From the NCBI RefSeq assembly GCF_030462475.1, contig NZ_JASMRZ010000005.1, forward strand, positions 62,001-126,000: DNA of 64,000 nt, read 5' to 3'. This document shows, one piece after another, positions 16,253 through 18,294 of this stretch. Below the pieces are notes generated by a model. It made no database searches, had not been told where the DNA came from, and saw nothing but the letters and a program-made list of their open reading frames with translations. Made by a program: the position numbers and the translations under genes. Origin of the DNA: Variovorax sp. CAN15. Its GTDB lineage: Bacteria; Pseudomonadota; Gammaproteobacteria; Burkholderiales; Burkholderiaceae_C. Position 1 is the stretch's first letter; each line of letters opens with the position of its first letter.

Positions 16253-16894
16253 ATGTCTCTCGTACTGGGTGTCATGGGGCTCCCTCAGGTTGAGGTCGAG
16301 CTCCTGAGAATCATCGTGCGCCTCAGCTCCAATCTCCGTTCGCGCTGGACCGTCAGCGAATCGCGATCCTGCGACCTGCTGCTGATGGACGGCGATTTCC
16401 CCGCTTCCGAATGGCAGGCGCTCAGGGCGCGCTTCGTCGTGCCTGTGGTGACCCGCGGCGATGCCGCCGCCAGGAGCGCCAGCCGCGCGCTCGCGCGGCC
16501 CATCTATGCCGAGGAGCTGGTGGAGCTGCTCAACGAGGTCGGGCCGGGCACAGCGTCCGCCGAAGCCGCGCGTGCCGCCGTGCGCCCGCCCGGCATGCGT
16601 GCCTCGCTGGTGCGCTGGCCCTCGCAGGCGACGCTGCGGCGCCATCCGGCCTTCGTGCGGCTTGCCGCCGCGCTTTCCAGGAGCATGCAATCGGCCGAGA
16701 GCCTCAGCGTGCTCGGCCGCGTGGACGTCGAGGTGTGCAGCACTTTTCTCGGCCTGCTCGACGGCGAAGGCGCCCTGGCGTGGGCCGAGCAGGCGCCTGC
16801 GCCTTCCGCGTCCCGCGCGTCCGCCGGCGGCGATGCCGCGCGGAGCAAGCGGGGCCTGCTCGCGCGCATCCGCCAGCGCCTCGGGCTGGCCTGA
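16253..16894 (+). CDS. Pseudo-receiver-like protein heading a GTPase/roadblock cassette
   Basis: A 213-residue protein I do not recognise by name. The first 100 residues look like a shortened receiver fold: a hydrophobic strand (LVLGVMGLP), a helix, CDLLLMDGD with acidic residues at the place of the phospho-acceptor, VVPVVTRGD, and ARPIYAEELVELLNEV in the position of the conserved K-P plus final helix (Lys is replaced by Arg). The remainder is Arg/Ala-rich, contains an Ala-Ser linker, and ends in a basic helix (RGLLARIRQRLGLA). ATG 16253 follows GAAGAAGG. The GTPase gene starts 13 bp later, implying joint function, perhaps as input or effector. Confidence 0.7.
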   Translation: MSLVLGVMGLPQVEVELLRIIVRLSSNLRSRWTVSESRSCDLLLMDGDFPASEWQALRARFVVPVVTRGDAAARSASRALARPIYAEELVELLNEVGPGTASAEAARAAVRPPGMRASLVRWPSQATLRRHPAFVRLAAALSRSMQSAESLSVLGRVDVEVCSTFLGLLDGEGALAWAEQAPAPSASRASAGGDAARSKRGLLARIRQRLGLA

Positions 16895-16907
16895 ACGGAG
16901 CACGGCC

Positions 16908-17450
16908 ATGAGGGACTACAAGCTCGTCTTCACGGGCCCGATGGGCGTGGGCAAGACCACGGCCATCGCCGCCATCAGCGAAACACCACCGGTCAGCACC
17001 GAGGTCGCCAATGCCGACGCCTCTGTCGCCAAGGCCACCACCACCGTCGGGCTCGACTTCGGCCAGGTCACGCTGGACAACGGCGACCGCCTGCGCCTGT
17101 ACGGCACGCCGGGGCAGGCCCGCTTCGACTTCATGTGGAAGATCCTGGTGCGCGACGCGCTGGGCTTCGCCATCCTCATCGACAACAGCCGGCCAGACCC
17201 GCTCGCCGACATGGCGGCCTACCTCGACGGCTTCGCGGGCGCGCTCGAGAAGATGCCTTGTGCGATCGGCGTCAGCCGGCTGCCCACCCATCCCTTTCCC
17301 ACGCTCGACGACTATGCGCACGCACTGGCGGCGCGCGGGCTGGTGCTGCCGGTGATGGCGACCGATCCGCGCCGCAGGGACGACGTCGTCGCGCTGATCG
17401 AGACGCTGCTGATGCAGATAGAGGCGCTCGACGAAGAGATCGCGCCATGA
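16908..17450 (+). CDS. Ras-like small GTPase (MglA/conservon CvnD type)
   Basis: A 180-residue P-loop GTPase. G1 is GPMGVGKT at residues 10-17. G3 reads LYGTPGQARFDFMW, with the usual DxxGQ aspartate absent, as in bacterial MglA and conservon GTPases. The G4 region is CAIGVSRLPTH instead of NKxD, also typical of this bacterial group. It should act as a nucleotide-controlled switch whose partner is a roadblock protein. GGAG lies 7 bases before ATG 16908. Its stop overlaps the next gene as ATGA, consistent with a GTPase-roadblock complex made in fixed ratio. Confidence 0.88.
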   Translation: MRDYKLVFTGPMGVGKTTAIAAISETPPVSTEVANADASVAKATTTVGLDFGQVTLDNGDRLRLYGTPGQARFDFMWKILVRDALGFAILIDNSRPDPLADMAAYLDGFAGALEKMPCAIGVSRLPTHPFPTLDDYAHALAARGLVLPVMATDPRRRDDVVALIETLLMQIEALDEEIAP

Positions 17451-17830
17451 GGATTCCCCACGAAATCAAGCTGCGCGCCGCGGCCGAGGTGCTGCGCGTG
17501 CTGGAAGACGTGAACGGCATCGCCTGCGTGGTCATCGCCACGCCGGACGGCTTCGAGATCGCCAGCGCCAGCCAGCGCCACTTCGAGCCCGCGCGCATCG
17601 CCGCGATGGCGAGTTCGATCTCCGCCATTGGCGCCGTCGTGTCGCAGGAGGCGCGGCTGGGCCGCTGCACCTGCATCACGGTGGCCACCGACAAGGGATT
17701 CGCGCTCGTCAGCCCGGTGCGCAACGGCGAGACCGAACTGGTGGTGAACGTCATCGCAGACGCCAATGCGGTGCTGGCGCAGGTGATGTACCGGACCGCC
17801 GCCTGCGTGCGTGTGCTCGAGGCGCCCTGA
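17447..17830 (+). CDS. Roadblock/LC7 domain protein 1
   Basis: A 127-residue single-domain roadblock/LC7 protein. The pattern is an N-terminal helix (IKLRAAAEVLRVLEDV), GIACVVIATPDGFEIAS, a helix rich in Ala/Ser (RIAAMASSISAIGAVVSQEA), then CTCITVATDKGFALVSPV and a final helix. In MglB-MglA and conservon systems such proteins dimerise and act as GAP or scaffold for the partner GTPase. ATGA overlap with the GTPase gene. It is followed by a 104-bp gap with a strong hairpin before the second roadblock gene. Confidence 0.87.
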   Translation: MRIPHEIKLRAAAEVLRVLEDVNGIACVVIATPDGFEIASASQRHFEPARIAAMASSISAIGAVVSQEARLGRCTCITVATDKGFALVSPVRNGETELVVNVIADANAVLAQVMYRTAACVRVLEAP

Positions 17831-17854
17831 GCAGCCTGCGGAAAACAACATCGG

Positions 17855-17884
17855 GCGGGGGCGGTTTGCATGCGACGCCCCCGC
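17855..17884 (+). terminator. Internal hairpin between the two roadblock genes
   Basis: Perfect 9-bp arms GCGGGGGCG (17855-17863) and CGCCCCCGC (17876-17884) with a 12-base loop. There is no T-run after it, so it is more likely an attenuator or RNA-processing/stability element than a full terminator. It lies between the coupled GTPase-roadblock pair and the downstream roadblock gene. Confidence 0.5.
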
Positions 17885-17934
17885 TTCATCCCTTCATTCG
17901 CATGACTTGAACCGAACCACAGGAAATCATTGAA

Positions 17935-18294
17935 ATGGCCTCGATCCAGAACAGCCTCGAAAACCTCCTGACCGCCGACGGCGCCCTGTGCGCAGCCGTG
18001 GTCGACTCCGCCAGCGGCATGATGCTGGGCGCCATCGGCTCCGGTGTCGATCTCGAAGTGGCGGCCGCCGGGAACACCGAGGTGGTGCGCGCCAAGCTCA
18101 AGACGATGCGCGCGCTCGGCCTGAACGACGCCATCGAGGACATCCTGATCACCCTCGGCAAGCAGTACCACCTTCTGCGCCCCATGGCTCAGAAAGAAGG
18201 CGTGTTCATCTACTTCGTGCTGGACAAGTCCAAGTCGAACCTGGCGCTGGCCCGCCGCAAGCTGCAGGACGTCGAGAAGGAAATGGCCTTCTGA
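17935..18294 (+). CDS. Roadblock/LC7 domain protein 2
   Basis: A 119-residue second roadblock/LC7 protein, clearly different from the first. It has SLENLLTADGALCAAVVDSASGMMLGAIG, then VVRAKLKTMRALGLNDAIEDILITLGKQYHLLRPM (only parts cited: DILITLGKQYHLLRP) and VFIYFVLDKSKSNLALAR. The last pattern, a dimer-interface strand followed by a helix, is typical. AGGA precedes ATG 17935. Two roadblock genes beside one GTPase suggests either a heteromeric regulator or two alternative partners. A strong terminator follows. Confidence 0.85.
   Translation: MASIQNSLENLLTADGALCAAVVDSASGMMLGAIGSGVDLEVAAAGNTEVVRAKLKTMRALGLNDAIEDILITLGKQYHLLRPMAQKEGVFIYFVLDKSKSNLALARRKLQDVEKEMAF

Follow-up and report, generated by a model that had tools for sequence, protein, structure and literature searches.

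A GTPase and roadblock cassette of Variovorax sp. CAN15 is very probably a Group 3 MglA system and may be a membrane-based polarity switch

The four-gene cassette in the window (the whole stretch of DNA analysed, 64,000 nucleotides of Variovorax sp. CAN15) is very probably a Group 3 MglA system in which one GTPase is accompanied by two MglB-type proteins. The best explanation of the data as a whole, that this system serves as a membrane-based polarity/pilus switch, has about an even chance of being right. Group 3 MglA systems were defined by Wuichet and Sogaard-Andersen in 2014 (PMC4316618). According to the accessible text of that paper, their gene set consists of MglA, one or two MglB proteins and a protein with a receiver-like N-terminus and a winged-helix C-terminus; nearly all hosts are beta- or gamma-proteobacteria, and the GTPase carries a deviant G4 motif and DAR in G5. 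The window cassette likewise coupled an MglA-type GTPase to two roadblocks behind a conserved protein with a receiver-like N-terminus, its G4 (S-R-L-P) departed from [NT]KxD and had no Asp, its G5 (D-P-R) was D-A-R-like, and Variovorax falls within the beta/gamma-proteobacterial host range. Among 47 GTPases compared, Lys occupied the G4 position in 8, and the Asp and the Arg of G5 were each present in 40. The cassette thus shares gene set, host range, deviant G4 and D-x-R in G5 with Group 3, and no difference excluding its membership was found in the accessible text. The original prediction had held that this composition could not be named, and a published system of the same families under a name was to count as its refutation; PMC4316618, as far as its accessible text goes, describes one with the same families, host range and receiver-like first protein. 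The composition is already known, and the cassette is very probably a further member of Group 3.

The predicted gene content was borne out. Four genes lie on the same strand between 16253 and 18294, as confirmed by their open reading frames (Table 1), and the GTPase and roadblock 1 genes share an ATGA overlap, as had been noted. Profile searches, structure models and Foldseek confirmed the Ras-like GTPase and two different roadblocks: roadblock 1 matched Robl_LC7, and the roadblock 2 model had an MglB fold, with Myxococcus xanthus MglB matched at 2.9e-6. The first protein was predicted to have a receiver fold lacking the acidic pair, in line with the degenerate receiver that had been proposed. 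Neither a histidine kinase nor a DUF742 protein was among the four proteins (open reading frames, Pfam/NCBIfam search), which agrees with the earlier description of a conservon-like logic without these two parts. No pilus genes were recognised adjoining the cassette in the list of open reading frames. An RNA hairpin between the roadblock genes was rejected, the gap giving z -1.1 in the window and z <= -2 in just 4 of 28 gaps (L003, L011, L030, L048). At one locus (L008, G097:C61) a 466-base gap separates the roadblock genes, and an open frame in it, with weak profile scores, is a possible third, divergent roadblock.

Table 1. Features of the cassette, in window coordinates
Feature	Position	Strand	Evidence
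Head protein, 213 aa: pseudo-receiver, winged-helix-like domain, linker, C-terminal helix	16253..16894	+	ORF; AlphaFold2 model
Pseudo-receiver domain, ~residues 1-97; without acidic pair, with Asp46	16253..16543	+	
Winged-helix-like domain, ~residues 113-179	16589..16789	+	Model secondary structure; profile matches
Basic amphipathic C-terminal helix, ~residues 198-212, proposed membrane anchor	16844..16888	+	Model helix; motif
Small Ras-like GTPase, MglA family, Group 3, 180 aa	16908..17450	+	
Roadblock 1, MglB-like, 127 aa	17447..17830	+	Robl_LC7 1.6e-5, over cut-off
Roadblock 2, MglB-like, 119 aa, best-conserved part	17935..18294	+	Model; Foldseek; mean identity

The head protein had no match in Pfam/NCBIfam. 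Its AlphaFold2 model (pLDDT 75, pTM 0.46) yielded the receiver fold in a structure search, and the best Foldseek match was NarL, a DNA-binding response regulator. The region that follows may be a winged helix: the secondary structure in the model of the whole protein fits one, profile matches were to DprA (0.0013) and SmtB (0.0021), and DprA_WH was matched by 7 of 19 members (best 0.016). The winged helix is the usual fold for DNA binding. Across 44 head proteins, a few of them lacking the N-terminus, Gly and Leu were the most frequent residues at the acidic-pair positions (26/44 each), the Lys position held Lys in 8 and the position of Asp46 held Asp in 23. Since the acidic pair was missing and Lys was kept so rarely, a phospho-regulated receiver is unlikely.

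Of the 44 head proteins, 37 carried a basic amphipathic motif within their last 30 residues, as did 4 of 123 controls; the contrast is descriptive because the pattern was drawn from the head-protein tails after they had been inspected. The controls were script-called proteins, 48 of them encoded in the window and 75 in six other contexts. The misses included L005, whose head gene is cut by a contig end, and the class of L002 (4 loci), which did not match the strict pattern; with L005 left out, 16 of the 18 clusters formed at 40% identity had one or more members with the motif. Net charge over the last 20 residues was +3.8 in head proteins versus +0.9 in controls. The hydrophobic moment was higher in the tails (0.60 versus 0.49, P 1.3e-4), a modest gain given a control 95th percentile of 0.78. 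In the model of the window head protein, a helix at residues 198-209 comes after a linker with pLDDT <50. The tails of E. coli FtsA (GSWIKRLNSWLRKEF) and MinD (GFLKRLFGG) are of the same type, and the head protein has, by model and motif, what marks these proteins, a basic amphipathic helix at the extreme C-terminus. The membrane-targeting sequence of MinD is amphipathic and has weak affinity, and a membrane-targeting sequence is also reported for FtsA (accessible text of PMC6803595). This resemblance suggests that the head protein binds the membrane via its tail.

A second type of cassette, with two MglB1-type genes, was headed by a further gene. Among 30 wider contexts, a gene for a TPR-like protein stood directly before the head gene in all 9 of this type, in none of the 12 of the window type and in none of the remaining nine, including L076 with its 442-aa head protein. 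Seven contexts (L088, L089, L090, L091, L093, L094, L095) matched the TPR profile with E-values no higher than 4e-109, and four of these supplied the seeds of the profile; matches in L092 and L096 were weak (3e-10 and 1e-7). The four seed proteins start with a hydrophobic stretch, and the TPR protein of these cassettes is predicted from its sequence to be membrane-anchored. Pfam TPR models were matched by three of the four seeds. The seeds also carried a DPLxEA-type repeat, a pattern found again in the FimV of 3 of 7 genomes. The TPR profile matched FimV frames at 7e-11 to 8e-7, scores for which TPR repeats might be enough. TIGR03504, the curated model of the FimV C-terminus, matched none of 4 TPR proteins in a scan at E 0.1. 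We call the gene FimV-like, not FimV, because it shares the repeat and leaves TIGR03504 unmatched. FimV proper was a separate gene, over the cut-off in all 7 genomes tested, that of the window included. A gene for a PhnD-like protein (PF12974) was also seen in 6 of the 30 contexts (L076, L088, L090, L092, L096, L102), three of them seeds. Its products in L088, L090 and L092 had no obvious signal peptide, and a role as a cytosolic ligand sensor is conceivable.

Gene order, which had been put forward as a check on the original prediction, was conserved. Head and MglB genes were located by iterated profiles in flanks of about 1.5 kb, so that more distant partners would escape. Within these limits, the head gene lay upstream in the same orientation in 40 of 44 GTPase loci, and at least one MglB gene followed downstream in 37 and two in 34. 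The exact order of the window recurred in 25 loci and the order with two MglB1-type genes in 9. The head genes counted include four matched mainly in the C-terminal half (L026, L028, L029, L034) and one whose match begins at profile position 37 (L027). The head gene was absent from the flanks at four loci (L020, L021, L025, L032); in the wider contexts of these loci the GTPase stood alone in three (L097-L099) and had an upstream roadblock in one (L104). No shared neighbour gene was recognised by eye around the window-type cassettes. In one seemingly decaying cassette (L009 and L066, G133:C50), the head gene and GTPase were kept, roadblock 1 was not found and the roadblock 2 match spanned just 35 residues.

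Three complete four-gene cassettes are present in the genome of the window. The other two complete cassettes (L002, G000:C107; L003, G000:C161) have head proteins of different classes, and the GTPases outside the window are 62% and 59% identical to that of the window. A GTPase match was obtained in 19 of 200 genomes of the order and in 11 of 41 genomes in a search of relatives (own genome included in both), and in 9 of 24 other genomes of the genus; the module is therefore patchy in distribution. These genomes were the source of the 44 GTPase loci described above. Relatives of the head protein with a named organism, as well as all 4 loci of a further search, came from Variovorax.

Protein distances between the cassette parts were correlated (r 0.83-0.95) over 26 complete cassettes, for which relatedness alone would suffice; the 26 are 28 minus L004 and L036, apparently one cassette seen twice. 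Mean identity in this set rose from 28% in the head protein through 36% in roadblock 1 and 51% in the GTPase to 71% in roadblock 2, whose standing as the most conserved part may be new. Roadblock 2 was present in 11 of 200 genomes. Six copies were fetched from outside cassettes, two of which stood alone (L069, L072) and two lay in longer frames with no Pfam domain over the cut-off (L067, L070). In the other two, a single frame encodes the roadblock-2-type domain together with a BLUF photoreceptor domain (L071:6503-8107) or together with a receiver and DUF4388 (L068:6777-8018). The genomes holding L067 and L068 (G152, G175) gave no GTPase match. These copies outside cassettes, some in genomes without a GTPase match, suggest that roadblock 2 has partners besides the cassette GTPase.

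How the system acts may be read in several ways. The role proposed for Group 3 in the accessible text of PMC4316618 is transcription control, in which the head protein, as an atypical response regulator, would bind DNA through its winged helix, and the GTPase and roadblocks would replace phosphorylation. A receiver joined to a winged helix is indeed the layout of a response regulator, and the NarL match points the same way. However, the conserved membrane-anchor-like tail is ill suited to a plain DNA binder, as is the membrane-anchored TPR partner in related cassettes, and the receiver lacks its acidic pair. We consider this role unlikely, while still a serious competitor. Because of the tail motif, the FimV-like TPR gene and the conservation of roadblock 2, the sequence evidence favours a membrane-based polarity/pilus switch over the transcription idea.

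A soluble signalling complex, in which the tail would be a peptide that docks onto the GTPase or one of the roadblocks and the output would be neither polarity nor transcription, appears improbable. It would accommodate the co-occurrence of tail, GTPase and roadblocks and their co-varying distances, and conservon kinases too carry conserved short C-terminal motifs (LPxR; accessible text of PMC4316618). However, the tail resembles the known membrane-targeting helices of FtsA and MinD and carries the net positive charge given above. An actinobacterial-type (Group 2) conservon in a betaproteobacterium can be set aside with near certainty. The CvnABCD conservon likewise couples a small GTPase to a roadblock in an operon, and the deviant G4 and the DxR form of G5 are common to Groups 2 and 3 according to the accessible text of PMC4316618; in contrast, the window cassette lacks the histidine kinase and DUF742 protein and has a second roadblock and a pseudo-receiver head protein, whose receiver fold is the mark of Group 3 in the same text. 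Membership in the Rup family was also set aside, as none of the Rup sequences in the accessible text of PMC4316618 was coupled to MglB.

For the membrane-based switch, we propose a mechanism of tethered scaffold, GTPase switch and polar pilus output, which has slightly less than an even chance of being correct. The head protein would be tethered to the inner membrane by its C-terminal amphipathic helix. Its pseudo-receiver and winged helix would be docking surfaces that bring the GTPase and roadblock 1 together, and phosphorylation-controlled DNA binding would not be their role. The roadblocks would determine whether the GTPase is in its GTP or its GDP form, and the GTP form would act on an effector at the cell pole, with type IV pili as the most likely output via a FimV-type TPR protein, as MglA acts via SgmX. 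Membrane binding, GAP activity and the polarity and pilus output are steps that we infer. Extended to Group 3 at large, the proposal is tentative: these systems would be membrane-bound type IV pilus polarity switches, not transcription switches, with the head protein as an FtsA/MinD-style anchor and scaffold and a FimV-like TPR protein as effector. One subtype would encode this effector within its cassette; in the subtype of the window it would be FimV itself, encoded elsewhere in the genome. The proposal is weakened by the published transcription role, by the lack of recognised pilus genes beside the window cassette, by the missing TPR gene in cassettes of its type, and by the association of PilT with the cassette, which was not significant (19/19 versus 173/200, P 0.055). 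A seeming fusion of a PilC-like protein to the head-protein C-terminus (P0108) comes from a metagenome contig of 1,985 bases, probably a chimera.

The nearest functional precedents lie in two organisms. M. xanthus MglA/MglB, RomR and SgmX resemble the proposed system in the MglA-type GTPase, the MglB fold, a receiver-domain partner (RomR) and a TPR effector acting on pili (SgmX), through which MglA acts on pili according to the accessible text of PMC7519303. In contrast, the M. xanthus GTPase belongs to Group 1 and has another G3, SgmX is not FimV, and mglA there is not near the genes of its partners (accessible text of PMC4316618). In the betaproteobacterium Snodgrassella, Group 3 mglA is found with coupled mglB genes as in the window; the phenotype reported, on colony morphology and gut colonisation and potentially through pili, comes from an orphan third mglB, and the receiver-like protein is not discussed in the accessible text (PMC11112851). 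The literature searched, which covered few subscription journals, yielded no biochemical study of Group 3 and no paper joining FimV, roadblock and GTPase. Neither the tail motif nor the FimV-like TPR gene was mentioned in the accessible text of PMC4316618; the head-protein tail motif may be new, as may the TPR gene heading the two-MglB1 cassettes. Together, the tail and the FimV-like TPR gene set a specific alternative beside the role in transcription that has been guessed at in print. If Group 3 systems are membrane-bound pilus switches, they would be a parallel to Myxococcus MglA-SgmX built from different parts.
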